From NCBI GenBank assembly GCA_015039365.1, contig WION01000276.1, positions 1 to 64,000 of the forward strand: 64,000 nt of DNA, read 5' to 3'. Of the stretch, positions 1 to 50,600 are shown piece after piece. Below the pieces are notes generated by a model. That model had not been told where the DNA came from. It saw only the letters and a list, made by a program, of their open reading frames with translations, and did not search any database. Positions within the stretch are counted from its first letter, which is position 1, and every line of letters begins with the position of its first letter. The translations under genes and the position numbers were made by a program. This DNA is from Amanita rubescens (lineage: Eukaryota; Basidiomycota; Agaricomycetes; Agaricales; Amanitaceae).

Positions 1-747
1 AACCTATGCCTTTCTGTCTGAAGGTCGCGTGGGGTCAAGACGATAGCCTGAAAGAATAAAGAACGAACCCAGTAACGGAATTCTTTCCTACGTCGACTGT
101 GTATGTGAAGGCAGTGACGAAGGGCACGAGGCAGAAGCCCACGGAAAGAGCCTTGAAAAGCGAGAGCATCAGGAAGGTTCGTCGCGAAACGCGATGTTCT
201 CGAGTTGGATAAACCTATTTTGCCTGCCGCACTCAGCCTATTTTAGTGTGTGACATGATCGATTGATCGGCCGATTCAAAATGCCCCAATCTGGCGGCTG
301 CAACTTTCAATTGGTCAGTAGGATGGTTATTACACTTGAGAGAACTCGATGCAAGAGGTGGTCCTGAACAGCCTGAACAGCAATCCACCTGTCCGTACAG
401 ACAATCTGACCTCTAAGCCACACCAGCGTGCTCATAAGAGCGACGCCCTCTTCGAATGCCGTATATTGAAATTACAACTACTTTGCGCACCCTAAAACAA
501 TGAGCTAGAGGCGATGTGCGATATTCAAATCATAACCCGGATATCAGAATAGGATATCTGATGAGCTAGGTGTCCGATTCATCCCCGAGCTGTTTCCTCG
601 AGGACCCCGAGAATAGTTGGTTCCAGGTCATCATCAGCTGGATATTCTGTGCAGATATTAGCGAAATATTTTAAGGAAGGAAGTTTGTCGCGTACAAGCC
701 AATCTTTAAACGGGCCTCGTCGTGTTGAGGGCCAATCTACGTTCAGC
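1..747. other. Left flank, no gene recognised
   Basis: Ordinary-composition DNA downstream of the minus-strand PUS3 gene. I see only short ORFs that are shadows of neighbouring frames, no conserved motif and no repeat. Part of it is presumably the PUS3 3' untranslated region. Confidence 0.4.
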
Positions 748-5582: not shown

Positions 5583-8500
5583 CTGCCCATGGAGTAATAT
5601 GACAAGGTCTTGATCATGCATAAAGGAGTCAGGAGTGATGGCTGCCTTGATCTGCTGAACATAGCCTTTTTGCTTGTATTGATCCAAAGCCTTTGTGACT
5701 GATGGCAGAAATGGTTTATTGATCCAAAAGGATAGCTTGGCAATGATAATAATTGCTTGTTGAAAGTTTAAGCATAAATATGTAAGTAAATGAAACAAAC
5801 AATTTACAAATTAAGACTTGGCAACCAGTAGGCTTGGTGCAATGGCATGAGTTATGCACTGCCCCCAAAAAAATACAAAAATACCTCAAGTGCAAAGTTC
5901 CATTGCATGTCTCCAAACATTGAGAAGAGTTCATGCTGCCAGGTTATGAGAAAGAGTAAAACATCCAATGTGATCAAACCTACAAGCTACCATGCAAACT
6001 GATATGAAAATCAGTACATCATGGACCAGCATCACCCACCTGAAAATCAAGGAAAGTCATAGAAATGATCACATGAGGTGGGATTGGGTGAGCTGAAATG
6101 GCATCTTACAATCTATGACAATAATAATGTAAAAGGAAGACATGGAAAAGATTTGCCAATGTGCTCACTTTCTGATATACATAAAATGTAATGATATATG
6201 AAAGATTCATGAATTGAGGTAGGTCAGAAAACATGTAATGTCACTCACTTGCTGGTCATAGGAGATGTGATGAGACTGCCTTTCACAAAATGTGTAATGT
6301 TACTCACAAGCTGTGGGTCATAGGAAAACATATGATGCCAAGTCATGAGGCCACCTTTCACAAAATGTGCAATGTCACTCACTTCCTGTTGTTCATAGAA
6401 AGAAAGTGATGAGACTACCATTCACAAGATCACTCACTTCCTGTTGTTCATAGGAAAACATGTGGTACATAAGACTGCCATTCACAAAATGTGCAATGTC
6501 ACTCACTTCCTGTTTCATAGAAAAGGGTGTGATGAGACTGTCATTCACAAAATGTGCGATATCACTGCTCACTTCCTGTTGGTCATAGGAAAAGATGTGA
6601 TCACTGATGAGACTGCCATTCACAAAATGTGCAATGTTGCTCACTTCCTGTTGGTCATAGTAGGAAAGATATGATGAGGCTACCTTTCACAAAATGCAAA
6701 ATGTCACTCACTTTCTGTTTTTCATAAGAACAGATGTGGTAAGACTGCCTTTCATAGGATGTACTTGAACATCACTCACTTGCTGTTGGTCATAGGAATT
6801 GAAGAGGTGGAGGTTACTGCCTTTCACAAAATGTGCTTGAATGTCACTCACAAACTGTTGGTCATAGGCAGCAATGTGCCAATAAGACTGCCTTTCAAAA
6901 AATGTGCAATGTCACTCACTTGAAACTGTTGGTCATAGGAAACAACATGATGAGACTGCCTTTCACAAAATGTGCAATATCACTCACATGCTGTCAGTCA
7001 TAGTAGGAAAAGATGTGATAAGGCTGCCTTTTACAACATGTGCAATGTCACTCACAAGCTGTTAGTCATAGGAACAAATGTGATGAGACTGCCTTTCACA
7101 AAAAATCTTCAATGTCACTCACATCCTGTCAGTCATAAGAAAAAATACATTGAGCAGCCAGTTCAGAAATATTGCAATGTTGCTTACATGCTGTTGTCCA
7201 TAGGAAATTCTGATGAGACTGCCTTCCACAAAATATGCAATCACTCACTCGCTGTTTGCCATATGAAACAATGTGATGGGACTGCCTTTTAACAAAATGT
7301 GCAATGTCACTCACATCCTGTCAGTCATAGGAAAAAAAAATTGAAAAGCTGTTCAGCAATATTGCATGTGACTTACATACTGTTGATAGGAAAGGATATG
7401 ATGAGACTGCCTTTCACAAAATATGCAATGTCACTTACTCGCTTTTGGTCACATGAAAAGATGTGATGAGACTGCCTTTCACAAAATGTGCAATGTCACT
7501 CACTCGCTGTTGGTCAAAGGAAGAGATATGATGAGACTACCTTTCACAAAATGTGCAATGTCACTCACTTGCTTGGTCATAGGAAAAGATACATATGATG
7601 AGGCTGCCTTTCACAAAATGTGCAATGTCACTCACTCGCTGTTGATTATGGGAACAGATGTGATGAAGCTTTCACAAATGATGTGTATTGTCACTCACAA
7701 GCTGTTGGTCATAGTAGGAAAATATGTGATTAGACTTCCTTTCAACAAATATGCAATGTCACTCACTTCCTGAGTTGGTGATGGGAAAATATGTGATGAG
7801 CCTACTGAGACTGCCTTACACAAAATGTGCAATGTCACTCACTTCCTGTTGGTCATAGGAAAAGATATTGAGACTGCCTTTCACAAAATGTGCAATGTTA
7901 CTTACTCCCTGTTGGTCATAAGATGTGATGAGATTGCCTTCACAAAATGTACAATGTCACTCACTGGCTGTTGGTCATAGGGAACAATGTGATGAAACTG
8001 CCTTTCACAACCTGTGCAATGTCACTCACTCCCTGTTGGTTATAAGAAAAGAAGTGCTAATGAGACTGCCTTTCACAAACTGCAATGTCACTCACAAACT
8101 GTTGGTCATAGAAAAATATATGATGAGACTACCTTTTACAAAATGTGTAATGTCACTCACCCACTGTTGGTCATAGGGAAAGATGTGATAAGACTATCTT
8201 TCACAAAATGTGTAATGTCACTCACTCCCTGTTGGTCATAGGAAAGGTTGACGAGACTGCCTTTCACAGAGTATGCAATGTAACTCACTCGCTGTTGGTT
8301 ATAGGAAAAGATGTGATGAGACTGCCTTCCACAAAATGTGCAACTTTGTCACTCACTTGCTGTTGGTCAAAGGAAAATATTTGATAAGAGTGCCATTCAC
8401 AAATGTGAAATGTCACTCACCCACTGTTGGTCATAAGAGATGTGATGAGACTACCTTTCACAGATGTGCAGTCCAACTCACTTCCTGTTGGTCATAGGGA

Positions 8501-10902
8501 AAGATGTGATTTCACTATCTTTCACAAAACTTGCAAGATTGCTCACAATCTGTAGAACAAAAGCACTTTATATCCAAATTGTTTTGCAACAGAGTGGCCA
8601 GCATCACTCACTTCCTTTTAGAATGGAGTTAGCATAATAAATTGTAAAAAAAGGAAAACAATGCCACTAACTCCCTTTTGCCATATTATTGAATTCACAT
8701 CTCACAGAGTCAAGTATCACCTACATCCTATTTGTATTGCAATAGTTTGTCAAGAGGTTAAGTTGAGAAGGAAAAATATTTACTATCTGTTGTTTTAGGA
8801 TAAGATGTGATCTTTATAAGCAGACAGAAAGAAAATATCACTTACTTCCTGTTCAATCCAATGAAAGTTTCTGAGCCTCTCCGATTTCAGATATGTAGCA
8901 GTATGTCACCAACTTTCTATCATTCATTGAGTTACATATGTCTAAACAGCACAAACTTCAATGTTACTTACTTTCTTTAAGCAGGTCAGATGTGGTGTGA
9001 GGCAGTGTTGTATTACTCACTCCCTGTCCCAAAGAAATTGGATTGACAAGTTTGCTTACAATGATGTATTAACTCACTTGCTATTGGTCATATGATGCAC
9101 CATAGGATAATTAACCAAAAAATTAAATTGAGTGATGTCACTCACTTCCTGTAGATTATTGGACAAGACTACCAATCAGAAAAGGAAGCATTACTTACAA
9201 ACTGTTGACATAGACAAGTTATCAGTTCCATGCTAGTTCAAAGTCACTTACCCACTGATACATATCAGTAACATCAGATCCTGCCACCATGATTCATGAA
9301 TATGATGAAAACTGTGACTAACCTCTGTTTCACTCAGTTGTTTATTGGCCATCTGAAGTATAACTAATCTTGTCTCCACATAACCAGATTGGAGTGCTAC
9401 TTACCTCCTGATGGTCATTTTGCAAGCACTCATCATTCCACAGGAATGCCACCTACCTCCCTGTCTACCTATTGCCATTTAATTTTTCCTATGCTTATGT
9501 GCAGCTTGACAAAAATGCATACCCAGAAATGTGGAAATTTTGAAAAAACCATGAGAACGACATCATTCCATGTCCAATCATCACGTTTCAGAACATGTCT
9601 GAATAATGTCAATGTTAGTAAGTGACATTTGGAAATTGGAATGTAAGCCTCACTGAAGTGCAGATGTTACACAAAGGTCAAGATTATTCTTCTGTGTTGA
9701 AACAAACAGATGATATAAGCTGTCATCATCTATTGCATCAGCAGTTTTCTGAGTTAATTCAGCACAATCTCTCTCTGGTAAATCCATGTCTATGACACAA
9801 CATTATTCCCATTTCTAGGAAGAAAGCCTCATCATCCTCACCTTCCAATTGCACATATGCCTTAGGAGGATATTTGGAATGCAAAACTTTAGGAAGATAA
9901 ACTCTCTGAAAGGTGATTTCAGCAATTTGCCTAGCTCTCTCCCACTTATCTTCATCTTTTACATCAGTCAAGTTGACAAATTCACTGGCTATTTGACCAT
10001 CAAATTTAGTGAATATAACCACCAAAGGAACTGTAAAGGAAATATTTGCTAGTCAGTACACTGTAGTACTGTAGATCAGTGCTTAGTAGATTTGGTGGCA
10101 ATTTGGTCAATGGAAAGGAGGTAACAATAGTTAAGGTAAACAATCTCTCCAAAACCAACAACATGAAATATGAATTCATTAGGATTTATGTACCTTTGCC
10201 TGTCCCTTTATTAAAGAATTCAAGTTCTGCAGGTAGAATGGGACGAGGGCTGTCCATGGGTATACAGTACCTAGTACAGGAAGCCAGGTTAGCCAGTACT
10301 GTAAAAGGATAAAGTGAGATACCAAATTGCATGCAGCTGATTCTTCAGCTCAGTTTCTGCAGACTTCTTTTCAATGAACTGCCAAGCAATCCCCAATTCC
10401 TCAGATGAACCAGATTCAAAACCCTGAGAGTCATGGAAGATAAAGTTACTTCCAGGGTATGTAATTTGATCCTCAATATCATGCAGGCCTCTCTGGCAGT
10501 ATCATTGCATGTGACTGAGTATATCCATGCATCATTATCTGACTCACCTCAAGTGATGGCATCAAATGAATCTCAGATGTTTTAAGCTGTTTACCTGCAA
10601 GAAATTCAATGGTCAAGGGCCATGAGAAGCACAAAACCCAGTCTGAAGGCTTACCCCACTTATTATATATGGCAGGCTTTGTCCCCTTTGCTACACCACA
10701 AACCTTCTCAAGGATGGTTGTCTTGCCTGCATTAGCCCTCCCAATGATAAGGATGCGAAAGTATGGGCATAGATAGCTCTCCTTGAGTGTTTGAATGTGT
10801 GTCTCATCTGGATCTGTATGCATCAGTTAAGGATTGGCCATGTTGAGACAGATGAATTAGCCTACTCAAAGAAGGTGCACCAGTTGTAGCTGTAGCTGCC
10901 AT
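5583..10902 (-). CDS. P-loop GTPase with an array of about 50 single-codon exons
   Basis: Start ATG at 10902 (MAATATTGAPS...). Ordinary exons: 10902-10866, 10813-10655, 10594-10548, 10492-10323, 10270-10194, 10030-9842, 9774-9654, 9598-9523. Joined in phase they give an unbroken G domain: Walker A GRANAGKTT, then SLERGLHDIEDQ, FIFHDSQGFE (switch/Walker B), WYCIPMDSPRP, and the G4-like motif FTKFD. These are typical of a GTPase family expanded in Agaricomycetes. After ...FSKFPHFW the frame passes through exons of 4, 3 and 2 nt (9457-9460, 9407-9409, 9323-9324), then about 50 exons of one codon each down to 6110. It leaves through exons 6036-6039 (4 nt), 5991-5998 (8 nt), 5885-5935 (HELFSMFGDMQWNF...) and 5583-5735 (LSFWINKPFLP...LLHGQ). 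Total is at least 65 exons. The G domain is firm. The micro-exon path is read from splice signals and frame only. The 3' end is unresolved. The function of the C-terminal part is unknown. Confidence 0.7.
6110..7379 (-). other. Single-codon exons, block 3 (3' end of array)
   Basis: Minus-strand codons with the plus coordinate of each triplet's left base: 7377 TAT, 7315 GAT, 7249 CGA, 7188 CAT, 7123 GAT, 7056 CTT, 6988 CAT, 6920 TTT-CAA (the only six-base exon), 6852 TTT, 6780 CAA, 6712 AAA, 6645 GAA, 6573 GAA, 6507 GAA, 6438 GAA, 6383 GAA, 6308 CTT, 6249 CAA, 6169 AAA, 6110 ATT. Each is preceded by AG (mostly CAACAG) and followed by GTGAGT or a close variant. Five consecutive GAA codons at 6383-6647 suggest the most recent unit duplications. 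Spacing between triplets ranges from 55 to 80 nt. Confidence 0.65.
6236..8560 (-). repeat. About 65-bp tandem repeat: conserved intron plus variable triplet
   Basis: About 35 head-to-tail units. Read on the minus strand, a unit starts with donor GTGAGTGACATTGCACATTT, continues with TGTGAAAGGCAGTCTCATCA, has an ATGAC branch-like site, and ends with acceptor CCAACAG. Then follow three variable bases before the next GTGAGT. Unit length varies from about 55 to 76 bp through indels inside the intron. Only the triplet slot is consistently variable in content while fixed in length. The repeats are much more alike here than in the upstream part of the same array (8.6-9.4 kb). Confidence 0.9.
7439..8484 (-). 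other. Single-codon exons, block 2 (middle of array)
   Basis: Minus-strand codons by plus coordinate of the triplet's left base: 8482 GAA, 8421 TGG, 8357 CAA, 8289 CGA, 8226 GGA, 8161 TGG, 8096 TTT, 8030 GGA, 7965 CCA, 7906 GGA, 7843 GAA, 7767 GAA, 7699 CTT, 7636 CGA, 7569 CAA, 7504 CGA, 7439 CGA. Four of the five CGA codons of the whole array are here. CpG is otherwise almost absent from the repeat. Flanking introns are the conserved repeat type. Intron lengths are 56-73 nt and not generally multiples of three, so reading through them would destroy the frame. Confidence 0.65.
8547..9460 (-). other. Single-codon exons, block 1 (diverged 5' part)
   Basis: Plus coordinates of left bases: 9457 GGAG (4 nt), 9407 GAG, 9323 AG (2 nt), then 9252 TGG, 9199 TTT, 9146 GAA, 9078 CAA, 9021 GGA, 8972 AAA, 8914 AAA, 8846 GAA, 8784 ATA, 8725 GAT, 8672 GGA, 8612 GAA, 8547 ATT. 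The 4+3+2 nt trio sums to nine, so the frame leaving the 9523-9598 exon in phase 0 is kept. The introns share little sequence with the downstream repeat. They keep donors such as GTAAGT, GTTAGT, GTAGGT and GTGAGT, and acceptors CAG, TAG or AAG. Some show perfect branch sites (CTGAC before 8972, CTAAC before 8612). Confidence 0.6.
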
Positions 10903-29005: not shown

Positions 29006-29060
29006 AACAGGAGCGTCGTTAAATTTTGAAAGTGGTTCAGGTGTCGCGACTTTGCCAGCA

Positions 29061-32000
29061 ATGATACCACGGGCAGTTAGAAGACTCGAGACGACTTGGT
29101 TGACGTCTCGTCAGAGTCTTCCTAGACCCGACCGTCTCTACTCTTCTCCTTCAAGACCTTCCAATGCTCCAGCTTTTGCTACAGCTCAGCTCACAAGACC
29201 TGATTTCCCTCCCTACATAGGAAATACCGTCCACGAGAACTCAATAGAAGCCTTCCTTGCCACTCGTCAACCTTTCACCGTTCTACCTGCTCCCCTTCCC
29301 GTCGACAGGACTTCCCCTACAGATGAACTTCTCTACGGTCATTCACCAACACAGGACCTCATCGCCGTCATGGATGCATGTCTTCACGACTCGTTCGATG
29401 TGCCTCGCGCAAGGGACATCTTTGAAAGGCTACGAACCTCAGACACCCACCACCTAGCTGATCCAAAATTGTACAACGCATTTCTAGAAGCTTATCTCAA
29501 TATGGCGACATTTAAGGAACCTGGCGGCAGAGAGTATTGGGTCGAGTCCGCTTGGTCTCTTTACGAAGTCATGGAGAGCGGTGCAGAAAAGGTCGTTCCT
29601 GTTGCCGGTACATACGCTATTATGTTACTCATGTGGTTGCGGTACGATTTTTTTTTTCTGAATCCGAGCCTAAGATTTTGATGCCTTTTCCTATAGTTTC
29701 AACCCCCAATCCTCTACCCCTGCCCATAATGCGCACCACCTGCCGCCTATTAATCTTCTCAAAAACATTATCAAAAGGAATATCGACGTCCAAGACGTCG
29801 TCGTGGACCGCGTCTTTGATTCTTCAGATCAAGCCGCCCAGGTTGTTCAATTGCTTTCACGTGCAGCTGTGGACCTCAACGAGTCCAACCTAGTTTTACG
29901 ACTCGCTCAGGTCGCACAAATTGCAACGCATGCGCCCGACGCCCTTGAAAACGTTCCAGAAATCTTGCCTGTGCTGAAAGCCAAGGTTAGTCATTATAAA
30001 CACTTTGACAAACGCTGACAGTTCATTTACAAAAGGTTTTGGAGGACGGCCAAGTTGAGCAAGAAGTTCCCTTCAATCTTGACAATCTCCGTCGACACCT
30101 GGGCCAAGTCAATTTGGCCCGCCGAGTCTTGCCAGAAGACTTGGTAGCCCGCCAAAAGCTCCTCGAAGAGTCCGTATACGAAGTTGCTGTAGAGCGGATG
30201 AAACATCAAGCAGACCTCTTCGCAGAGCTTGGAATGGGCCACGGCGGTCTCATGCAGGCAGATTTGCGTCGCTGGATGTGGGACTGGCATCTTAAGCTCA
30301 AGGAGCGTCTCATAGATGAGATGAGGAAAATTTCCCGAGAAGAGCGATCAAGGTCAAATAGGAAGGTTTCTCCTGCAGTCCTCTTATCCCCCTATTTTCA
30401 TCTCGTCCAGGCAAGCAGACTCTCCCTTATAACCATACTGGAGATTATGCGACTGCAAGGTAGTGGCGGCGTACATGACGGTATGAAGGCAACCCGGGCG
30501 CTGATCCAAGTCGGTAGAGCGGTCGAAATCGAGTACAAGGCACAAATGTGTCGGAAGAGCAAGATCCAGATACCTTCTTCACCGCGACGGAATGATGTGA
30601 AGTACTTCTCGAATATGGGTTATAGATTCCTGCAAGAGCGCCGTCTGGCGGCTGCAAAACACGTCATGGATGGTGAAGGATGGACCGCAGAATGGACGCA
30701 GGGTGTCCGTTCCAAGCTTGGCGGCATCCTGGTTGAATGCTTGATGGATGTGGCTCAGGTGACGCGATCGGTCCGTGATGAGGCGACTGGAGAATACATG
30801 TATGTCCATCTTTCTCCAGGTCGCTGTTATTGTGTTCCAACATATTGCACAGCTCCGAGAACCAACCCGCTTTCTACCATACATACGAGTACCAACGTGG
30901 ACAAAAGCTCGGTGTTATTAGACTCAACCCTGCGGTAGCGGAGCGACTGTCTCGCGATAGTGTGCAGGAGACGATCCATCCTCGCCACCTTCCGATGATC
31001 GTCAAGCCAAAACAATGGGTAGCCCCTGACCATGGTGGGTATATCTACAACAAGAGTGAGTCCTCAACTTTGCGCTACTTGACATCCGCTTGAATGTCTT
31101 GCAGGCGGCGTCATGCGGTTCAAAGACTCGATCGAACAACTTAGCTACCTCAAGCATGCATCAGCTCAAGGTAACATCGAACTCATCTATGCAGGCCTTG
31201 ATGTTCTCGGCAGTACACCCTGGAAGGTCAACCGCAAGGTGTTTGACGTTGTACTCCAGGTGTGGAATTCCGGCGAACGGATGGGCAAGCTTCCTCCTGC
31301 AATCTACGACCAACCCGAGCCAGAGGCTCCGGAAAACTATGAGACCGATCTCAAAGCACGGAGCATCTACCTTGCACGTGTGAAGGCGCATAATCAAGAA
31401 AAGGCCAACAATCACTCTGACAGATGCAGTGTTAACTACAGGGTGGAGATTGCCCGCTCGGTGGGTCTAGTCTTTTGCACTTGATATCTGCCCCTCTCTT
31501 ATATATATCCCAGTTCCTCGGCGATGACTTCTACTTCCCTCACAATCTCGATTTCCGTGGACGTGCTTATCCCATCCCACCGCATCTCAATCACATTGGT
31601 GATGACCTCTGTCGCGGTCTTTTGCAGTTTGCGGAAGCAAAACCTCTCGGCGAGCGTGGTTTGCGGTGGCTCAAAATCCACCTTGCCAATTTGTATGGTT
31701 ACGATAAAGGCAACTTTGACGAACGTGTCGAGTTTGTCGAAAAACATTTGGATGAAGTGTATGATAGTGCGACGAAGCCACTAGAGGTGTGTTGTTTACG
31801 CGCATGCAGATTATGATATGACTGACGGCAATCTCCAGGGCCGACGCTGGTGGTCCAAGGCCGACGACCCATGGCAATGTCTTGCTACATGCATGGATTT
31901 GCACGCAGCTCTTGAATCGGGCGACCCGCATTCGTACATGTCCTCGCAGCCTGTGCATCAAGACGGCACTTGTAACGGATTACAGCACTACGCCGCTCTA

Positions 32001-33502
32001 GGTGGTGATAAGAAAGGTGCAGCGCAAGTCAACCTCAGCGCCGCCGATCGACCGTCGGATGTGTATACCTATGTCGGGAACATGGTAGAACAAATGATCG
32101 CGGAAGACGTCAAAAATGGTGATGAGAGGGCTATTATGCTGCAGGGTAAAGTTTCGCGAAAGGTTGTCAAGCAGACGGTCATGACGACTGTGTATGGTGT
32201 GACGTTTGTTGGGGCACGTGAACAAATCGAGAAACAGTTGCACGACAAGAAAGAGTTCCCTGAAGAGGAATGCTGGAAGTTGTCCAACTACCTTGCCAAG
32301 AATGTGCTTCTTGCCATTCAGGATTTGTTCCGAGGAGCCAAGGGTATTCAAACTTGGTTGAATCTCTGCGCGAAACTTATTTCAAAGTCCATGCCGGCTG
32401 AGCGGATACCTGAGGCCATGGCGGAGTATCAAGCGAAGGGGGTCCGTCGCGGGAAAACCACGGCGCTGCCTAATGGCAGGTTGAGAAAGGAGCAGATGAC
32501 GTCGGTCGTGTGGACGACTCCCCTCGGGTTGCCCATTGTACAGCCGTACCGGAAGTGCTCGAGGAAGCAGGTTGCGACTGCGATTCAAACTGTCTACATC
32601 TCTGACCCTAATAACCCTGCTGAAGGTAAGTTGATTTTTCTTTTATGTGACCGCAGCTAATTCGCGTAGTCAATTCTATGAAACAGGCGTCGGCCTTCCC
32701 GCCCAACTTTATCCACAGTCTTGATGCCACTCATATGATGCTTACTGCTCTCAAGTGTCATGTAAGAGCGCGTCCCATATCTCCATTCAAACTGCTTATG
32801 TTTGGTTTATAGGCGCTTGGCTTGACGTTTGCTTCTGTGCACGACTCTTATTGGACGCACGCGTCAACGATAGATCAAATGTCGGAAGTTATTCGCGAGA
32901 CTTTTATAGCTCTGCATTCCTCCGACGTTCTGGCTAAACTTCGCCAAGAGGTGTGTAGTAGTAAGCTCTGCTAGACGTTCTCTAGGTTCTTATGTCATTT
33001 TTTCTTCTTCTTTCAGTTTGTTGAGCGGTACAAGGACTACAAAATACCGTTGCTCCATCTTACCACGGGACAGACGATTAAACAACTGCGTGATGCCGGT
33101 GTGCAGATCGAGCTGACAGCTGAAAGAGCAAAGGTTATACGTTGTACTGCTCTAAACCCTCTGCTCAAGATCGTAGACCAAGACCCAGCAGCAAAGTCCA
33201 CAGCCAACGAGAGTCAGGCTGAGAACGAGGATGTCCAAGATGTGATTGCTCAGAGTGAAGATGAATCTGCAACCACCTCGGAAAATTGGGAGAGCGAAAG
33301 CTTCGATGAAGAGATGGAAGCCGCGCTTGAGGGAATGGATACACGTCTGGCAAATATTGTGAAGAAGAAAGCACAAGCGGAAAGAGAGTCCGTTGGTCTC
33401 CGCGACAAGTTTGTTGACCTGGTCGACCTACTTCCAGCTCTTCCGCAAAAGGGCGACTTCCTGGTGGAAGACATCAAATCGTCGCCCTATTTCTTCTCAT
33501 AG
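29061..33502 (+). CDS. RPO41: Mitochondrial DNA-directed RNA polymerase
   Basis: T7-type single-subunit polymerase that transcribes the mitochondrial genome. The first ATG in the frame is at 29061. The N-terminus ([20 protein letters not shown]) is basic and suits a mitochondrial presequence. The N-terminal domain extends to about 30.9 kb with several introns. The catalytic part shows [20 protein letters not shown] (31512-31570), motif [19 protein letters not shown] (about 31960-32010) with the first catalytic Asp, motif [18 protein letters not shown] (32157-32208) with the nucleotide-binding Lys and Tyr, and motif [10 protein letters not shown] (about 32837-32863) with the second catalytic Asp. 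The C-terminus (33050-33502) carries an acidic insertion of about 80 residues before the final [12 protein letters not shown]...SPYFFS. All key residues are present, so the gene appears functional. Confidence 0.95.
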
Positions 33503-39633: not shown

Positions 39634-39844
39634 TTCTCAGAAACGGGAGAAGAAAAAGAGGGTGGAGAGGAATAAAAAGGGCATCGGAGATTACGAGAGG
39701 TTTAAAAGAGGCGGGATGACAGAACCAGGAACGGTGCAGTCAAACAATGCGGCCCGAAAGCGAATCCCACCTGTCATTGACTACTTAGATCGCGTACTTA
39801 CTGAGGTGACTCGCTCATGCCGATCATCAATGCGCGTGTCACTG

Positions 39845-39852
39845 TGACGTCA
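39845..39852. promoter_or_regulatory. CRE-like palindrome TGACGTCA
   Basis: A perfect TGACGTCA lies 18 bp upstream of the SET1 start codon. This is the consensus for bZIP/ATF-CREB factors. The other copies keep only partial versions (for example GTCACCGTGACAG upstream of SET4 and SET5). One occurrence this close to the ATG may be chance. Confidence 0.25.
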
Positions 39853-39870
39853 CAAAGACTGCCACAAACT

Positions 39871-41193
39871 ATGGAGTCTTGGATGAAGCGCGGGTTCCTG
39901 CAAAGTTCAGGAACAGATTCAAAACCTCTTACTCCTGGTGCGGTAATCATATCGAAAAAAACTACTGACGATCCGGATATCAGTTCAAAACCAGACAGAT
40001 CTCTTAAACAGGAAGTATTCAAAATACCGGCTATAGCGATCATCGATGACAATATCCCGAGCTTTGGACGCTTCCCTGGGGGGCGCGATGAGGTGTTCAC
40101 AGTCAAGTTGCCATACGATGATGATAATCATACCACGGAACCATATACCATTTCTCTCCTCTACCACGGTGCCAAGGAAGCGTTGGCAGCCATTCCAGGA
40201 TTTCCTGCTCCTTACAACCCTTCTATCCGGGTGCATTACCGCATTGGCGATGCTCCGGGTGCCGGAAAGGGCATGTTTGCCTTAACCAATCTCGACACCG
40301 GGGACCTCATTGCCCGCGAAAGACCACTATTCCTGTTCCCGCAGGCCATTCCCGTTCACAGTTATGCTGAAAGGGACGCGATTATCGAGCAGACCGTATT
40401 AAAGATGAAGCCAGCAGACGTCCTAGACTACTTTGACTTGGCCAACTGCAAGACCGAGGGAGGTCGCGCTGCAGGTATTATGAGAACCAATAACCTCAAT
40501 GCAGCACGCATGCCGGGCGGATACGATGGTAGATACGCTTGCGTTTGTCGCGACCTTTCTCGTGCCAATCACAGGTTAGTAGCCGCGTATTGGATTTCAG
40601 AGTCTGACAATCACTACAGCTGCTCTCCGAACGCGACTTATCGATGGGTCCTCAAAGACTTTATGTATGAGCTCCGCGCCGCACGCCGTATCAAGGAAGG
40701 AGAAGAGATTTGCATCACATATGTCAATTATCTCCGGGGCCGCTCGGCTCGGCAAGAACATCTACAGTCCTCCTATGCATTCACATGCAGGTGTTCAGCT
40801 TGTTCCATGCCATCATCGGAAATCCCTCGCAGCGATATTCGTCGAGGGTTACTGGATTTTTCCAGGGTAAACGAAAATGCAAACGATGATTCTATGCTAA
40901 ACGCATGGTGCGAGAATACCTCCCTTCCCGATGACTATGTCATTAAAAATACCATGAAATTCGTCACCATACTGGAAGAGGAGAAACTCATCCAGAAGGA
41001 CATTTGCAAGATGTACTACTCTAGACTTACCAAGGCTTATTGCGCGTTGAAAGACGCCAAGAATGCTAAAATTTGGGCCAAACGAACGGCGCTGATGGTC
41101 ACAGCTGCCGATGGCGATGATATGGGCTGGAATAAAGTTGCCGATTCGCCCGAGTCTACGGACTGGTGGGGTCGTAGGAAGAGTCGTTCTTGA
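39871..41193 (+). CDS. SET-domain protein 1 of tandem array
   Basis: Start chosen at ATGGAGTCTTGG, which is conserved in copies 1-3. An intron at 40575-40619 (45 nt) interrupts the catalytic motif. Splicing gives RANHSCSPNATYRW with the canonical NHSC. Without splicing the frame stays open and adds 15 residues. The predicted product is 425 residues. Other SET features are IRVHYRIGDAPGAGKGMFAL with GDLIARERPLFLF (SET-N), EEICITYVNYL (SET-C), and the post-SET cysteines FTCRCSAC. The C-terminal tail has AYCALKDAKNAKIWAKRTAL and ADSPESTDWWGRRK, which are shared by all copies. The layout resembles SMYD-like lysine methyltransferases but lacks a MYND finger. The substrate is unknown. Confidence 0.85.
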   Translation: MESWMKRGFLQSSGTDSKPLTPGAVIISKKTTDDPDISSKPDRSLKQEVFKIPAIAIIDDNIPSFGRFPGGRDEVFTVKLPYDDDNHTTEPYTISLLYHGAKEALAAIPGFPAPYNPSIRVHYRIGDAPGAGKGMFALTNLDTGDLIARERPLFLFPQAIPVHSYAERDAIIEQTVLKMKPADVLDYFDLANCKTEGGRAAGIMRTNNLNAARMPGGYDGRYACVCRDLSRANHRLVAAYWISESDNHYSCSPNATYRWVLKDFMYELRAARRIKEGEEICITYVNYLRGRSARQEHLQSSYAFTCRCSACSMPSSEIPRSDIRRGLLDFSRVNENANDDSMLNAWCENTSLPDDYVIKNTMKFVTILEEEKLIQKDICKMYYSRLTKAYCALKDAKNAKIWAKRTALMVTAADGDDMGWNKVADSPESTDWWGRRKSRS

Positions 41194-41628
41194 TCAGCTT
41201 GGGATTTGCATCATGACATCTTCATACCTTGTTCTGTTGTACTATTGGCTCACGATATATATTTAGTACACGGCCTACCGAACGACATTAATATTTGAAC
41301 CTTATGACAGATCAAACGGGACTCGCCGCAGAGTCCCATGGCTAACGATGCTACAAGCTCAGACTCGGTGGTGTACCGATCAATCGATCAAGATTCGAAT
41401 TTCAGGGTCACGCTACGGATTTTTTTTACTACTTTCGTGTATCAGTGATTCTGTTCAAGTCCCATGTGCGCAGGGCCATTTCATGATCATCCTCAGGTTA
41501 TTAGAAATTCTAACGCTGATTCGAGAGTCGTGAAAAGAACCACCAGATCGCGCACATCAAAGCCGCGTGTCACACTTGGTGGCATTGCAAGTTGATGTCA
41601 CATACAGTTCCTTCTTCTGCCCCAAATT
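41194..41628. other. Spacer between SET1 and SET2
   Basis: No coding content. It is partly similar to the SET2-SET3 spacer, for example a GGTCACGCTACGGATTTTTTT word and GGCATTGCAAGTTGA just upstream of the next gene, consistent with duplication of a gene-plus-spacer unit. Confidence 0.5.
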
Positions 41629-42978
41629 ATGGAGTCCTGGATGAAGCGCGGGTTCCTAAAAAATCCAGGAACCTCTTCAAAACTTGCTTCTGGTGCGGCG
41701 AAAAAAACCGCCGACGACCACTCTTTGGATGTCAGTTCGAAACCAGACAGATCTCTTACCTCTGCTATTGCAATTACACAAAATCAGCCGTTCAAGATAC
41801 CAGGTATAGAGATAATTGATGAAGATATCCCGGCTATGGGACGCTTCCCTGGGGGGCCCCGCAAGGACGCGTACATAATCAAGTTGCCCTACAATGATGA
41901 CAATCATACCACGGAACCATATGCCATTTCTCTCCTCTACACTGGTGCCCAGGAAGCGTTGGCAGCCATTCCAGGATTTCCTACTCCTTACAAGCCTTCT
42001 ATCCGGGTGCATTACCGCATTGGCGATACGCCAGGTGCTGGAAAGGGCATGTTTGCCTTAACCGACCTCGACACCGGGGACCTCATTGCCCGCGAAAGAC
42101 CACTATGCCTGTTCCCGCTAGCCATTCCCGTTGACAGTTATGCTGGAATGGACGCGGTTATTATGCGGACTCTGTCAAAGATGAAGCCAGCAGACGTCCT
42201 AGACTACTTTGACTTGGCCAACTGCAAGACCGAAGGGGGTCCCGCTTCAGGTATCTGGAGAACTAATGGCCTCGATGCGAAGCGCATGCCGGGCGAATAC
42301 AATGGTAGATACACTTGCATTTGTCGCGACCTCTCTCGTGTCAATCACAGGTCTGTCAGTAGCCGCGTATTATCTTTCAGAGTCTCTGACAATCATTACA
42401 GCTGCTCTCCAAACGCGACTTATCGATGGGTCCTCAATGACCTTATGTATGAGCTCCGCGCTCTACGCCCTATCAAGAAGGGAGAAGAGATTTGCATTTC
42501 ATATGTCAATTATCTCCGGAGCCGCTCAGCTCGGCAAGAACATCTACAGTCCTCCTACGCATTCGCATGCATGTGTTCAGGTTGTTCTTCCATACCTCCG
42601 TCAGAAATCCCTCGTAGCGATGCTCGTCGAGGGTTACTGGAATGGTCCAGGGAGAACGAGGATGCAAACGATGATTCTATGCTGAACGCATGGTGCGAGA
42701 ATACCTCTCTTCCAGACGATTACGTCATTAGCGATACGATGAAGTTCGTCAACATACTGGAAGAGGAGAGACTCATCCACGAGTACATTTGCAAGATATA
42801 CTACTCTAGACTTACCAAGGCTTATTGCGCGTTGAAAGACGCAAAGAATGCTAAACTTTGGGCTAAACGAATGGCGCTGATGGTCACAGCTGCCGATGGC
42901 GATGATATGGGCTGGAATAAAGTTGCCGATTCGCCCGAGTCAACGGACTGGTGGGGTCGGAGGAAGAGTCATTCTTGA
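41629..42978 (+). CDS. SET-domain protein 2 of tandem array
   Basis: Close paralogue of copies 1 and 3 throughout, including the start MESWMKRGFL. The intron is 42351-42401 (51 nt, a multiple of three, without a stop), and splicing yields RVNHSCSPNATYRW. Product is 432 residues when spliced. Motifs: VHYRIGDTPGAGKGMFALTD, ARERPLCLFP, GEEICISYVNYLRSRS, post-SET CMCSGCS, and the tail ADSPESTDWWGRRK. The N-terminal 60 residues before the SET domain are the most variable part between copies. A presumed protein lysine methyltransferase with unknown substrate. Confidence 0.85.
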   Translation: MESWMKRGFLKNPGTSSKLASGAAKKTADDHSLDVSSKPDRSLTSAIAITQNQPFKIPGIEIIDEDIPAMGRFPGGPRKDAYIIKLPYNDDNHTTEPYAISLLYTGAQEALAAIPGFPTPYKPSIRVHYRIGDTPGAGKGMFALTDLDTGDLIARERPLCLFPLAIPVDSYAGMDAVIMRTLSKMKPADVLDYFDLANCKTEGGPASGIWRTNGLDAKRMPGEYNGRYTCICRDLSRVNHRSVSSRVLSFRVSDNHYSCSPNATYRWVLNDLMYELRALRPIKKGEEICISYVNYLRSRSARQEHLQSSYAFACMCSGCSSIPPSEIPRSDARRGLLEWSRENEDANDDSMLNAWCENTSLPDDYVISDTMKFVNILEEERLIHEYICKIYYSRLTKAYCALKDAKNAKLWAKRMALMVTAADGDDMGWNKVADSPESTDWWGRRKSHS

Positions 42979-43328
42979 TCAGCTTGGGATTCGGCGGCAT
43001 CTTCTTGTTCTGTTGTACTTTTTGACTCGCAAACCCATATGTATATTTGATACACGGCTTACCGAACGTCATTTGAACCAATGATCCAGGGTCACGCTAC
43101 GGATTTTTTTCATTTTCTCGGAACTTTCGCGTATCAATGATTCTGTTTCAAGCCCTATGTGTGCAAGGCCATTGCATGATTATTCTGCTATTCCGAGAAG
43201 AAACTCTAATGCTGATTCGAGAATTTTCGTCAAAGGAACCACCAGATCATCGCGCACTGACTTCAGCATAAAAGCCGCGCGTCACACTGTGGCATTGCAA
43301 GTTGACGTTCCTTCCTCCGCCCCAAACT

Positions 43329-44687
43329 ATGGAGTCCTGGATGAAGCGCGGGTTCCTGAAACATTCAGGAACCTCTTCAAAGCTTGCCTCTACTTCATCG
43401 AAAAAAACTGCCGACGACCACTCTTCGGATGTCAGTTCGAAACCAGACAGATCTCTTACTTCTAGCAATGCAATTGTACAAAATCAGCCGCAAGAAGCGT
43501 TCAAAATACCAGCTATAGCAATCATCGATGACGATATCCCGGGCATTGGACGCTTCCCTGGGGGGCGCAGGGAGGCGTACATAACCAAGTTGCCATATGG
43601 TGACAACTATACCACGGAACCATATACCATTTCTCTCCTCTACCCCGGTGCCAAGGAAGCGTTGGTAGCCATTCCAGGATTTCCCGCTCCTTACAGCCCT
43701 TCTATCCGGGTGCACTACCGTATTGGCGATGCGCCGGGTGCTGGAAAAGGCATGTTTGCCTTAACCGACCTCGACACCGGGGACCTCATTGCCCGCGAAA
43801 GACCATTATGCTTGTTCCCGCAAGCCATGCCGGGCAACAGTTACACTGACTCGGACATGATTGTTATGCAGACTCTGTCAAAGATGAAGCCAGCAGACAT
43901 CCTAGACTACTTTGACTTGGCCAACTGCAAGACCGAGGCAGGTCCCGCTTCAGGTATTATGGCAACCAATAACCTCAATGCAGCACGCATGCCGGGCGAA
44001 TACGATGGTAGATACGCTTGCATTTGTCGCGACCTCTCTCGTGTCAATCACAGGTCTGTCAGTAGCCGCGTATTGACTTTCAGAGTCTCTGACAATCATT
44101 ACAGCTGCTCTCCGAACGCGACTTATCGATGGGTGCTCAAGGACCTTATGTATGAGCTCCGCGCTGTACGCCGTATCAAGAAAGGAGAAGAGATCTGCAT
44201 CCCATATATCAATTATCTCGGGAGCCGCTCAGTTCGGCAGGAACATCTACAGTCCTCCTACGCATTCACATGCAGGTGTTCAGGTTGCTCCCTACCACCG
44301 TCAGAAATCCCTCGCAGCGATATTCGTCGAGGGTTACTGGATTTGTCCAGGGTAAACGAAAATGCAAACGATGATTCCATGCTAAACGCATGGTGCGAGA
44401 ATACCTCTCTTCCCGATGACTACGTCATTAGCAATACCATGAAATTTGTCACCATACTGGAAGAGGAGAAACTCATCCAGAAGGACATTTGCAAGATGTA
44501 CTACTCTCGACTTACCAAGGCTTATTGCGCGTTGAAAGACGCAAGGAATGCTAAAATCTGGGCTAAACGAACGACGCTGATGGTCACAGCTGCCGATGGC
44601 GATGATATGGGCTGGAATAAAGTTGCCGATTCGCCCGAGTCTACCAATTGGTGGGGTCGTAGGAAGAGACAGCTCTCTCGTTCTTGA
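43329..44687 (+). CDS. SET-domain protein 3 of tandem array
   Basis: Near-duplicate of copies 1 and 2. The first ATG, at 43329, starts MESWMKRGFLKHSGT; codons upstream lack an ATG. The intron 44054-44104 is 51 nt and frame-neutral. The spliced protein has 435 residues with RVNHSCSPNATYRW. Other motifs are VHYRIGDAPGAGKGMFALTD, GEEICIPYINYLGSRSVRQE and FTCRCSGCSLPPSEIPRSDI. The ending is WWGRRKRQLSRS, slightly longer than in copy 1. The SET-C motif reads IPYINY where others have ISYVNY or ITYVNY, so Ser/Thr is replaced by Pro next to the catalytic Tyr, which may affect activity. Confidence 0.85.
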   Translation: MESWMKRGFLKHSGTSSKLASTSSKKTADDHSSDVSSKPDRSLTSSNAIVQNQPQEAFKIPAIAIIDDDIPGIGRFPGGRREAYITKLPYGDNYTTEPYTISLLYPGAKEALVAIPGFPAPYSPSIRVHYRIGDAPGAGKGMFALTDLDTGDLIARERPLCLFPQAMPGNSYTDSDMIVMQTLSKMKPADILDYFDLANCKTEAGPASGIMATNNLNAARMPGEYDGRYACICRDLSRVNHRSVSSRVLTFRVSDNHYSCSPNATYRWVLKDLMYELRAVRRIKKGEEICIPYINYLGSRSVRQEHLQSSYAFTCRCSGCSLPPSEIPRSDIRRGLLDLSRVNENANDDSMLNAWCENTSLPDDYVISNTMKFVTILEEEKLIQKDICKMYYSRLTKAYCALKDARNAKIWAKRTTLMVTAADGDDMGWNKVADSPESTNWWGRRKRQLSRS

Positions 44688-45105
44688 TCAGCTTGGGATT
44701 TGCATGGACATCAGCCGTGGCATCTTCATATCTTGTTCTGTTGTACTGTTGACACACGAAAACCCAGATGTATATTTTGCACACGGCCTACCAGACGTCA
44801 TTTCAATTGAACGCATGGCTCCAGTTACATTTAGATCCCCAGTTCCAAAAGGGACTCCCGCCACAAGGTCCTATGGCAAACGACGATACAAGATACAGGA
44901 CTCTGTGGTGCGCTGATCAATCGATCCACGTTACGCCCCAGAACTTTCGCCTGATTCGAGAGTCACGATCGTCGAACACTTTTGAATTTTCTTCGCGTGA
45001 CGGTAAATTACGATCGTTCAACATTTAACGTGTCAATATCTAGTGTCACCGTGACAGCGCCTCCCTTCTTCTATCCACGTCTTGCCCTGTACCCTGCCGT
45101 CCTGA
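44688..45105. other. Spacer between SET3 and SET4
   Basis: No gene seen. The part just upstream of SET4 (about 44985-45105) resembles the region upstream of SET5 (about 48645-48758), sharing TTCTTCGCGTGA-like and AGTGTCACCGTGACAG words. Copies 4 and 5 therefore derive from one duplication that included the promoter. Confidence 0.5.
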
Positions 45106-46376
45106 ATGAAGCGCGGATTCTTGTTAAGCGGTTCAAAGCCATACAAATCTCTGGCTTCTGGCGTGGCAATCGCACCAGATGAGCTGCGGGGAACGTTCAA
45201 AATACCTGCCATACCCACCAGGGAGAATATTCCGGAAATAGGAACCCCCCCTGCACCGGGGCTCAGTTACATGAGAATAACTCAATTTCCATTCCACACT
45301 GCGGTAGGGGAACCATACTCCATTTTTCTCCTCTACCCCGGTGCCAAGGAGGCGATTTCAGCCATTCCAGGTCTCCCTACCCCTTATATGCCTTCTCTCC
45401 GGGTGCATTATCGCATTGGCGATGCACCGGGTGCTGGAAAGGGCATGTTCGCTTTAACAGACCTCGACACCGGGGACCTCATTCTCCGCGAAAGACCGTT
45501 GTTGCTGTTCCCGCGCTATACTTTTGGCAACATTACTTCCCTGCAGATGATTTTTATGCGAATGATAACTTCGATGAAGCTAGAAGATTGTGCAGAATTT
45601 ATCAAGTTGGCAAACTGCAAAACTGAAGGGGATCCCATTGTAGGGATCATGCACACTAATGCACTGAATGCGTTACGCATGCCAGGCCCATATGATGGTA
45701 GATACGGTGGCGTTTGTCTCGATCTTTCTCGTGTCAATCACAGGTCAGTGGCCGCGCGTGCACTTTCAAAGTCCCTCACAATCATTTGAACAGCTGCTCT
45801 CCGAACGCGACTTGTCGCTGGATTCTTAAAGACATTATGTTTGAACTTCGTGCTTTGCGCCCTATCAAGAAAGGCGAACAGATTTTCATCTCATATATCT
45901 ATTTACTCCAATCGCGCTCGGATAGGCAAGAGCACCTACAATCCAGTTACGCTTTCGCTTGTACCTGTCCATCGTGCTCCCTTCCTCCCTCCGGAATATC
46001 TCATAGCGACATTCGCCGAAACTTACTGGAAAATCGAGGGACGATAGGCGACCCGAACGATGATTCTATCCTAAATACATGGATCAAGGATATCTCTCTT
46101 CCTGATGATCATGTCATTGGTCACTCCTTGAAGTTCGTTGATATAATGAATGCGGAGGGGTTTGTTGATGAGCAAGTCTGCGAGTTGCATTACCAGCGAC
46201 TTGCCAAGGCTTATTGCGCATTGAAAGACGCAGAGAACGCCAAACTCTGGGCTAAGCGAACGGCACAGATTGTCATGGCTATTTATGGCGATGACTATGG
46301 GTGGAACAAAGTTGCAGATTCGCCCGAGTCAACGGATTGGTGGGGTCGTAGGAAGAGAGGGCTTTCTTGTTCTTGA
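45106..46376 (+). CDS. SET-domain protein 4 of tandem array
   Basis: Start is MKRGFLLSGSKPYK at 45106. In copies 1-3 this Met is the fifth codon; here the ancestral first codon is lost and the TGG codon before Met is TGA. The intron is 45744-45793 (50 nt, not a multiple of three, containing TGA), so splicing is obligatory, giving RVNHSCSPNATCRW. Product is 406 residues. Motifs: VHYRIGDAPGAGKGMFALTD, LRERPLLLFP, GEQIFISYIYLLQSRSDRQE, FACTCPSCSLPP, tail ADSPESTDWWGRRK. It is closest to copy 5. Confidence 0.85.
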
Positions 46377-47021
46377 TCAGCTTAGCTGCATTACTGTGTT
46401 CATCATATACTATGAAAGTGACCTTTGCTGGCAGACTCCTATTGAGTCAGGGACGAACCATGTCGCCTCCCCGAGGATTCTTACCTCTTTTTTATTTTTA
46501 TGTTGGATTATCAGACCATATTTATTAAAAAAGTAAGACATGGGTGCATTGAATGAAGATAAGTGGCTGTAGGTATCGGGCACTTAGCCGCCTTGGCAGG
46601 GTGTTGGTCTATTCTGAATTTGCAAGAGAGCTCAACTTCATGCAAGCTTTACAGCAGGTGAATAGGAAGATCGGTGAACAGAAGGCAGTCGTGCAATGTT
46701 ACTCGGACTGAAAGCGAGGTTTGGGTACTACGCTCAAGCTGCACAGGTGCTCAAGCGCTCAGAAGTGGCTTGGTGGAATGCAGTGTGACAGGCAAATAAC
46801 CCTGCTCGGACTGGTGGCCATCCCCCTGCCACACGCCGTACCTCTACAGAGTCAACCTGCAGCGTGGGCGTAGGTTAGGGTACGGGTGCGCAATGTGTTT
46901 CTCGATAAATTCACATTCAATTACATGATGGCTGCCAACTCCACGTCATCTCAGTAGCAGCATGTGGAGAGAGTCGGATATAGGCCGGTCGATGACTACT
47001 TTACATCGCTCTCTGAGAACC
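46377..47021. other. No gene recognised
   Basis: Between SET4 and the end of the minus-strand F-box gene. Only short ORFs. No repeat was noticed. Confidence 0.35.
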
Positions 47022-48508
47022 CTAATACGCTTTGCTGTCAGTTGCATCAATCTCGTGTGCATAAGTCCACCACTCGTCATAAGCCAGCTGCGACTTATGC
47101 CACCGCGTCAAAGACACCCCAAGCTCGTCAAACTGCTCCTTCTCGCCGCCTTTCCAATAAGGTACATCCTCGTTATACTCTAGCTCCTTCGCCCCGCTCG
47201 CTCGAAATGCGTCCACTAACACAGACGCGCTCAGTGACCAAAAACCACAACCCAGAAAAGCAAGCTTCTTGAGCGGAATCTTTGGATTGCGGGCAAACTT
47301 CTCCATCAACTTGTCATCAAACGCGTTCCACGTAGATGGCACGTGAAAATATACCTCATGCTGCGTAATGCACTCCAGCTTTGGAAACGGTGGTCCTCCA
47401 TCCTCTCCAAACAGCAGCCATTCCCAGGAACGTCGTGACAAATACACCTCAGTGATCGCAAATCGCCGCACATTTCGGCACCGCAACGCGAAGAGCTTCA
47501 GCGTGTTGTACACCCATTCTAACACCCAATGGTCCCAATCTATGTCAGGGCCCTCTGACGAGTCTCTATACGTTGGTCCACGCGATGCGTCCAAATGCAA
47601 ATCCTCCAGCACGGGCGCCGCGATACATCTAATCAAGTCGAAAGCCGTACCAGGCACCGACACCGCCAAATGCTTCAACTTTGGTAGCTGAATGTTTTGC
47701 GAAATTGAACGTCCCTTGATCGGGCGCCACTCACTCATATCGTCTGGGTTATCCAAAAAATGGTGCTTCATCCATAACGACTCCAACTGCGGTGTGCAAT
47801 GGAGAAGCGCTGCGATGAGTGACGGGTAACAGCTGTACCGCTCAAGTGATCCATCCAGGATGAGCGTGGTCAGTTGAGAAAAGGACGCAGAGGAGGGAAG
47901 CATCGGTAGTGCGTCGTGGAAGCTATTCATATGAAGCTTTCGCAGGTTTGGAAACATCATAGAGGTGTTTACGAGAACTAAGTCCAGTCGTGGCCAAACA
48001 GATGGTTTCGTTGACTCGTAAACCGACAGAGCGGAAAACACTTCGAGCGCCGGGATCGCCTCAGACTTTGGGAAGACATCGTGGACGATAGCGCCCGCCG
48101 TCATTGTTCTATGAGTGCTGAGCTCGAAATGGTGGATCTGCAGTGGGCGTTGAACTCTGATAAGACTTTGCACATGGCAGATACTTTTGCAGTGTGCTCG
48201 TTCTCGGTAAGGAGCCTTATACGCACGTCGAGGAGCCGGCCCCTCGCACGCGAGATCCTTTCACGAAGAATAGGGGGTCCGTCGGTCGTAACTTGGTGAG
48301 GTCCGAGGAGCACGGTCGTCCAAAGCGATGTCGTAGAGAATGCGACGGTAGCGAATGCTTTGCAGGTTTCCCATATGGCTGGATTGTAACATTGGGTGAA
48401 TATTTCGCCTAGAACCTCAGCTGGGAGGTCAAAGCACCTGGAGATCCCAGAGTTTGATCCTTTTGTAGCTGGGTCAAGATGAGTTTGACCCACTCTTGAA
48501 TGTTGCAT
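47022..48508 (-). CDS. F-box protein, possibly frameshifted
   Basis: Two overlapping minus-strand frames form one protein. The first (48508-48101) contains the F-box FDLPAEVLGEIFTQCYNPAIW followed by ...TTSLWTTVLLGPHQVTTDGPP. The second (48173-47022) has LRR-like strands such as MFPNLRKLHMNSFHDAL, LKHLAVSVPGTAFDLIRCIA and FPKLECITQHEVYFHVPS, and ends ARGA-like near 47022 (HEIDATDSKAY). They overlap around 48100-48173, where protein similarity should pass from ...LSEFNAHCR to QIHHFELSTHR. I see no convincing intron there, so a one-base indel is likely. It is either a recent pseudogene or a sequencing artefact. The gene sits inside the SET array on the opposite strand. Confidence 0.65.
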
Positions 48509-48758
48509 TTTCTTAAATCTTCGGGTCCAGAGCCGAGTCTACCTGGGAGTAAGTACCCCTGAGGCTGAATACGATCGTTGATGTAAAATTCCCACGACAA
48601 CATTTATGTGACCCGGAGAAGAAGAATTCATGCTCGCTACTTTAACTTTTCTTCGCGTGACCGCGGTGAATAGTGCGACTGCGATGGTTCTATCCAGTGT
48701 CACCGTGACAGTGCCTTTCTTCTCTATCCACGTCTTTCCCCAAACCCTGGAGTTCTGA

Positions 48759-50019: not shown

Positions 50020-50342
50020 GTTTTCAGAATTGCCACAAGCAGATTAATTGCAGACTCCTACCCAGTCTCACGGAGCGGCGCTTGAGGCTTGACGATGTTA
50101 TGTAAGCCGCTTGCTCCAGGGAGACTGGTACTTAACAATAGTAAACAAATGCTCGGCACGATGTGACATGACAATGTCACTGAAAGGAATAGTCAAAATA
50201 TTCTTCCTCGCCATCGTTGGCTCTCTGCGTGCGTTGTTAAGGACCTAAGTTATATTGTTGTCGCTTCCCTACATTTCCTGGTCCTTGGACTTGGTAGAGA
50301 GGCATAGCTGTCCTATATCAGATACCTATGAACTAATACTTC

Positions 50343-50424
50343 ATGTTTCCGTGTGGCTGAGTGGTTAAGGTGTCAAGTATTTTTGTTTGGTTGAGGGTTC
50401 AATTCCAGCTTGACCCACCTTTTT
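50343..50424 (+). other. tRNA-like Pol III unit inside the MITE
   Basis: Box A TGGCTGAGTGG (50354-50364), box B GGTTCAATTCC (50396-50406) matching the GGTTCRANTCC consensus, and a T5 terminator at 50420-50424. The sequence after the T arm does not pair with the 5' end and the T stem has mismatches, so it is not a working tRNA. It is a tRNA-derived SINE or relic. Confidence 0.55.
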
Positions 50425-50515
50425 CTACATGACACAAATGACTGCTGTGTGAGCCATGCTCTCGTAGATGTAAGTCAAAATGCTGGCAACTTAATATGGC
50501 TAAAGCTGAAGGTGT

Positions 50516-50600
50516 AAAAAGGTTGAGCATACCGGGATTTGAACCCTCAGCCTGGCAAAAATTAGCAAGCATCATAACCACTAAGCCAAACAGGCAATTA
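50516..50600 (-). other. Second tRNA-like Pol III unit, convergent with the first
   Basis: On the minus strand: box A TGGCTTAGTGG (50588-50578), box B GGTTCAAATCC (50545-50535), T5 terminator at 50520-50516. It can be aligned along its length with the plus-strand unit at 50343-50424, so the two are diverged inverted copies. Acceptor-stem pairing is lacking. Confidence 0.55.

Follow-up and report, generated by a model that had tools for sequence, protein, structure and literature searches.

A predicted GTPase gene of Amanita rubescens with a long series of likely single-codon exons

The predicted gene and its homologs

The window analyzed here is the whole stretch of 64,000 nucleotides from Amanita rubescens. 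Its minus strand carries, from position 10902 to 5547, a predicted GTPase gene of 65 exons, in which the frame is uninterrupted throughout and all introns (64/64) have GT-AG ends. Of these exons, 51 are likely to enter the mRNA as one codon each and one as a pair of codons. The gene model comprises the following features.

10866..10902, minus strand: exon 1, with the predicted start codon
10655..10813, minus strand: exon 2, GTPase P-loop GRANAGKTT; Pfam MMR_HSR1 near the cut-off
10548..10594, minus strand: exon 3, GTPase
10323..10492, minus strand: exon 4, GTPase
10194..10270, minus strand: exon 5, GTPase
9842..10030, minus strand: exon 6, GTPase, FTKFD motif; an equal-scoring place lies on contig C35
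9654..9789, minus strand: exon 7; the acceptor TAG/ACATGG brings back the DMDLPE of homologs
9523..9598, minus strand: exon 8, ending in FPHFW
9457..9468, minus strand: 12-nt exon VDRE (VDR in P0002, VGR in P0027)
9405..9407, minus strand: single-codon exon GAG (E)
9323..9352, minus strand: 30-nt exon MANKQLSETE (MANKQLSE is present in P0027)
8547..9254, minus strand: conserved array head of 13 single-codon exons, its six leading codons compared across 17 gene copies
Head exons 1 to 7, minus strand, first bases: 9254 W, 9201 F, 9148 E, 9080 Q, 9023 G, 8974 K, 8916 K
Head exons 8 to 13, minus strand, first bases: 8848 E, 8786 I, 8727 D, 8674 G, 8614 E, 8549 I
6169..8484, minus strand: variable array part, 35 single-codon exons and one six-base exon, peptide EWQRGWFGPGEELRQRRYDRHDLHFQFQKEEEEELQK
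6925-6920, minus strand: the six-base exon TTTCAA, within the variable part
5984..6112, minus strand: array tail, ATT (I) at 6112-6110 and CTT (L) at 5986-5984; E-I-L precedes (P)ELF in P0022
5885..5935, minus strand: exon HELFSMFGDMQWNFALE
5808..5832, minus strand: 25-nt exon PTGCQVLI(S); CQVL in P0022 and P0025
5547..5755, minus strand: last exon, conserved helical C-terminal part with stop TAG; a related exon adjoins arrays at other loci

By addition, and with the corrected start of exon 7 included, the predicted product has 458 amino acids encoded by 1377 nt. A start of exon 7 placed 15 bases further in was dropped, as the corrected acceptor restores the motif found in homologs. The introns of the variable part measure about 62 nt and belong to one repeat family, and the intron after the array is 123 nt long.

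This model bears out the 49 single-codon exons and one six-base exon of the initial annotation, and places them between 9254 and 6110. That annotation gave introns of 46-73 nt, mostly not multiples of three; the latter point stands (37 of the 49 micro-exon introns), while the range in the model is 46-77 nt. The upstream exon at 9523-9598, which had been thought to join the array, is indeed there, but the 12-nt and 30-nt exons (9468-9457 and 9352-9323) intervene. Of the two open exons proposed downstream, 5885-5935 was kept, an extra 25-nt exon was added at 5832-5808, and the last exon runs over 5755-5547 rather than 5735-5583.

The predicted protein is of the P-loop GTPase type (TRAFAC, MMR_HSR1-like), with a G1 P-loop and a G domain, and scores 21.1 bits against Pfam MMR_HSR1, slightly under the cut-off of 21.9. 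Pfam searches of the window model, P0022, P0044 and P0002 at E up to 0.1 detected neither NACHT nor ankyrin; the hits were weak and came from GTPase families and, in a few cases, from unrelated ones. It should be noted that the queries for the homolog search, the alignment and the domain search were an approximate version of the window model, with a short exon 7 and a C-terminal junction that was guessed or lacking.

The longest homologs by query coverage were intron-free environmental open reading frames (ORFs) on contigs of 1.4-1.9 kb. Because they are intron-free, those with a matching codon order are taken to be RNA-derived. P0002, P0027, P0022, P0025 and P0044 contain the head codons, the tail codons or both in the order of the window, which reads HFW-VDRE-E-MANKQLSETE-W-F-E-Q-G-K-K-E-I-D-G-E-I-E-W. 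Counted on the alignment, the window head WFEQGKKEIDGEIEW matches 11 of 15 residues in P0002, where the counterpart reads HLWVDRAVTNEQLSETKWFEKGKKESDREIEY, and 8 of 15 in P0027, where it reads HFWVGRDEMANKQLSEAQWFEHGKKDTDKQIVY. At the other end, K-I-L-HELFSMFG of the window matches REILPELFSVFG of P0022 and P0025. The single codons, when joined, thus spell homologous sequence. Beyond the variable part, neither P0002 nor P0027 runs on into known C-terminal sequence, so for the subfamily of the window no one ORF combines head, array and tail. P0027 probably comes from another species, since among the matches listed in a genome search with this protein the best exons had 80-85% identity, with one 72-residue piece at 89%. 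A region-limited protein search with the array segment alone gave 44 candidates, none of them at E up to 10.

P0022 and P0025 are 89% identical, yet unlike across most of the stretch at the place of the array. The structure model of P0022 has a mean pLDDT of 80.7, with residues 295-357 below 50 and confident flanks; the array insert is thus predicted to fall in a low-confidence stretch between the GTPase and the helical domain. All six annotated A. rubescens proteins examined are without the array: P0001, P0008, P0018, P0051 and P0072 stop within about 40 residues past FPHFW/HYW, and P0066 runs from HYWVM straight into the C-terminal part. Other genomes may therefore conceal such arrays.

Elsewhere in the window, six similar ORFs or ORF groups lie in tandem at 39805-52394 and presumably encode SET-domain-like proteins. 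We take the ORFs at 29007-33502 and 59378-62050 to resemble mitochondrial RNA polymerase and beta-adaptin, respectively.

Spacing and codon content of the micro-exons

The strict pattern AG-N3-GTRAG has 46 matches in 9410-6100; 1000 Markov-1 simulations gave 0.49 on average and 4 at most. An acceptor-donor gap of only 3 or 6 nt had been claimed, and the counts agree: over 9800-5500, AG and GTRAG at gaps 0-9 gave 1, 0, 0, 46, 0, 0, 1, 0, 0 and 0 matches, that is, 46 at gap 3 and one at gap 6, plus one at gap 0. No chain of at least three AG-N3-GTRAG-type junctions was found elsewhere in the window on either strand. Across 25 arrays of 20 loci, the window included, 933 of the 1024 matches to AG-Nn-GTRAG[T/C] with n from 0 to 15 have n=3; the other spacings listed are 0 (17), 6 (16), 1 (10), 2 (5), 4 (4) and 5 (1). 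These arrays were delimited by the pattern itself, so a count anchored within the introns, which leaves the splice sites themselves unused, is fairer. By such anchors, 624 of 695 junctions at 21 loci including the window imply 3 nt, with 25 implying six, 9 implying nine and 37 other lengths; in the window, 22 of 29 imply 3 nt, three imply 6, and four imply 0, 1 or 5. The gap stays at 3 while intron length varies (mean 60.3, sd 5.2 for 758 introns of 40-80 nt).

No stop codon was found among the 932 single-codon exons of the 20 loci, compared with 57.8 expected from positional base frequencies. The 932 are the 933 matches minus one overlapping match, as matches within 30 nt of the preceding one were dropped. 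The anchored 3-nt exons, for which no overlap rule is needed, contain no stop either (0/624), and all nine genome-wide matches of a TRR codon pattern, which would allow TAA, TAG, TGA or TGG, are TGG. Three apparent TGA exons were rejected as overlaps of real units, in which AAG/TGA/GT had been read four bases late.

Codon use in the arrays approaches one codon per amino acid (GAA, CAA, GGA, CTT, CGA, TTT, AAA, GAT), and cysteine codons are absent from the 932 exons. The third base is C in 1.4% of these codons versus 13.4% of 292 ordinary codons of the window gene. NTA, which with the next intron would give TAG, is rare (19/932 versus 194 NTT), as is NGT, which would create an earlier GT (5/932 versus 183 NGA), as if competing splice sites were avoided. 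However, NCA forms CAG together with the following intron and is still as frequent as NCT (30 versus 31), so splicing may account for codon choice only in part.

As all micro-exons are in phase 0, every subset of them stays in frame, and the array might serve mainly for alternative splicing, with cells skipping different codons to obtain many isoforms per gene. There is a reported precedent in Tuber melanosporum (PMC9815663, PMC4986451). We regard this explanation as possible but doubtful, as variation between gene copies already supplies diversity and the strong, uniform donors suggest constitutive splicing.

Sister arrays and differences between gene copies

The 75.7-Mb assembly (786 contigs) was searched for related arrays. 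A junction pattern of 29 bases, open to any codon, has 715 exact copies, of which the first places listed were read, and its reversed control has none. The conserved K-codon junction of the array head was found at 86 places with at most 3 mismatches, haplotypes being counted together, and the control again gave 0. Among 17 loci of 10 kb with at least 20 units, 13 have the family GTPase together with the C-terminal exon, two (L018 and L027) have only the latter, and L011 and L012 are the remaining two. With no letter required, the head codons of 17 gene copies, five of which are close kin, are W in 17, F in 17, GAA in 15, CAA in 13, GGA in 16 and AAA in 17; the walk at L024 gives TGG for E and may be mis-stepped. 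In a similar set of copies, the introns between head codons have a mean pairwise identity of 0.73-0.85.

Several members are worth describing individually. L011 (C3) has a 66-unit array with no GTPase in its 10-kb stretch, and a C-terminal exon at the start of L012; L012 (C3) holds a second array of 28 units, after which no GTPase or C-terminal exon was found. L013 (C8:73000-82999) is a version with shorter introns of 53 nt and a coiled-coil-like peptide (QKLQKLQKYLEREQYLERYKEYQRER). L018 (C26) is a diverged member with broken-up arrays, more ordinary codon use and the family C-terminal domain downstream. In the variable part of L016, the C13 array, the codons are nearly all CAA, CTA or CGA, and CCA occurs in none of 54 units. 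Six recent close gene copies with different arrays (two on C228, and C254, C257, C769 and C13) are suited to dating codon change.

The codons and the introns around them differ to very unequal extents. In the C79 array (68 units), units differ on average at 1.94 of 3 codon bases versus 1.02 of 62 intron bases, and in the C13 array (40 units) at 1.00 of 3 versus 0.24 of 62, with a total of 5 departures from consensus in all 62-nt introns of its 40 units. The introns of the older arrays L011, L012, L019 and L025 differ by 6.6-14.3 of 62 bases, and those of L013 by 6.7 of 53. The 62-nt consensus is shared letter for letter by five of the seven tabulated arrays, and a sixth has one change. C13, C254 and C257 are 96.5-98.5% identical in the flanks beside the array and 92-98% farther out, and their 62-nt introns depart from consensus by 0.2-0.5%, while codons and unit numbers differ past the head. 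Unit number ranges from 40 to 54 in the C13/C254/C257/C228/C769 group.

Three comparisons bear on how the codons change. Upstream of its array, C254 has 97.8% identity to C257 over 4 kb and 95.1% to C228a over 2.3 kb; downstream, 1394 nt are identical between C254 and C228a, and the last 30 codons are common to both. By sequence, C254 is a mosaic copy, like C257 upstream and like C228a downstream. C228a and C769 differ at two adjacent codons (CGA CGA versus ATC GGA) with the adjoining introns unchanged; their differences fall on 4 of 141 micro-exon bases versus 4 of 4659 other bases (Fisher p 4.6e-5), three of the four changed micro-exon bases belonging to one codon. In C79, at a shift of 18 units, 14 of 19 codons agree and 5 differ, 3 of them by all three bases, with 5 differences over the 19 introns. 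Of 10 arrays tested, 3 had more block repetition than the 95% level of shuffled arrays.

Hypermutation of the codons was also considered. In four other near-identical pairs (alignments of at least 98% identity), micro-exons hold one of the 14 substitutions and none of the 11 indels; fast codon change is therefore not seen in every pair, and hypermutation is not supported in these four, the fifth pair, C228a/C769, showing the whole-codon change. Pooling the five pairs gives a 9.4-fold excess in micro-exons (Fisher p 0.0004) that depends on C228a/C769.

Point mutation with diversifying selection on the codons and homogenization of the introns, in which no units would be exchanged, would fit the C13 array, whose codons differ chiefly at the middle base. 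We consider it somewhat unlikely in view of the CGA/ATC replacement beside unchanged introns in C228a/C769, the mosaic structure of C254 and the differences between TTT and CGA in the duplicated C79 block. It is unlikely that the codon diversity came first and that an introner-like element was later inserted between all codons of an older continuous exon. Such an origin would agree with the one 62-nt consensus common to arrays on different contigs and with young arrays that combine near-identical introns with diverse codons. However, copies with the same introns differ in unit number (40 to 54), an 18-unit block is repeated in C79, and we know of no property of introners that measures off three bases.

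Interpretation and relation to known systems

It is very unlikely that the array is a non-coding minisatellite within one large intron, its splice-like motifs being skipped en bloc: the units do form a tandem repeat of about 65 bp, and five annotated proteins end soon after FPHFW/HYW while P0066 bypasses the array, but this reading is opposed by the absence of stops, the variable intron lengths at a constant gap of 3, the head and tail codons found in the same order in homologous ORFs, and the scarcity of third-base C. What can be established from sequence is the open frame, the 3-nt spacing, the lack of any stop, the sister arrays, and, in young arrays, the near-identical introns around unlike codons. 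The codon-by-codon reading first proposed for this gene gains support from the open frame, the order of head and tail in intron-free ORFs and the 932 exons without a stop. The micro-exons are very likely coding, with their introns removed one by one.

In this gene, the predicted splicing would build up a variable segment, between the GTPase and the helical C-terminal domain, one codon at a time. As the repeated DNA of the arrays is that of the introns, units of one codon and one intron could be traded by recombination and gene conversion, either inside one array or between arrays. Such an exchange would swap whole codons and alter array length while keeping the frame, and units are probably traded by recombination through the introns. 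Having many sister genes with arrays of other codons likely lets the fungus vary one protein stretch codon by codon. The segment may form the variable loop of a putative recognition GTPase, comparable to other nonself genes of fungi that evolve fast; a recognition role for the product is plausible, and is the least certain of these proposals. Tentatively, the introns might be the conserved scaffold of a receptor-diversifying locus, in which cassettes with identical introns recombine and a GTPase sensor family, hidden from annotation, rewrites its loop codon by codon; this would be germline diversification by codon shuffling, with an origin independent of that in the truffle.

If spliced as predicted, the gene would extend the truffle case to another fungal phylum and another protein family, and single-codon exon arrays would look like a recurrent route to protein diversity. 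A 3-nt exon defined about 50 times in succession is not easily allowed by exon-definition models. The arrays also offer a natural experiment, in which selection and recombination act on the codons and the surrounding repeated DNA leaves the message. Our literature search, which covered few subscription journals, listed nothing on such arrays in Amanita. As far as its listed results show, the new elements are the basidiomycete host, the GTPase family, a copy number in the tens, and codons that are decoupled from introns.

It had been stated at the outset that no gene was known with dozens of such exons in series. This does not hold, as the NACHT-ANK (nank) genes of Tuber melanosporum are reported to contain dozens or tens of 3-bp, alternatively spliced mini-exons (PMC9815663, PMC3689799, PMC4986451, PMC10197012, citing Iotti et al. 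2012, Fungal Biology 116:261), and arrays of codon-sized exons were thus already known in fungi. According to these reports, the truffle genes, like those of A. rubescens, form an expanded fungal family and line up codon-sized exons by the tens, and their micro-exons are tied to a C-terminal recognition region. They encode alternatively spliced NACHT-ankyrin receptors of an ascomycete, whereas those described here are basidiomycete GTPases in which no NACHT or ankyrin was found, and a further difference from the truffle genes as reported is that the young arrays have near-identical introns around unlike codons.

Immunity-related GTPases (IRG) are one of the closest known systems considered. 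The micro-exon genes (MEG) of Schistosoma are described as having many exons of 3-81 bp, introns of up to 5 kbp and secreted products (PMC10526429). The window gene is like them in its many short in-frame exons and, on that description, unlike them in that its micro-exon introns measure 46-77 nt, all its micro-exons but one are 3 nt long, and its protein begins with a GTPase. Fungal introners and introner-like elements are reported as many near-identical introns in one genome (PMC4457414, PMC9860276), and the main text of PMC9860276 makes no mention of Amanita, Basidiomycota, Agaricomycetes, microexon, tandem or hypervariable. Near-identical introns at many places of the genome are likewise found in A. 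rubescens, but they follow one another at three-base intervals within a single gene family, and among the loci checked, 13 of 17 of which carry both the family GTPase and the C-terminal exon, no introner-type spread into unrelated genes was seen. In the WD40, ANK and TPR repeats of fungal NLR proteins, near-identical units are reported to recombine and to carry few hypervariable positions (PMC9815663). Those repeats, as described, are coding, whereas in A. rubescens the conserved repeat is the intron, and it is the variable codon that would remain in the mRNA.
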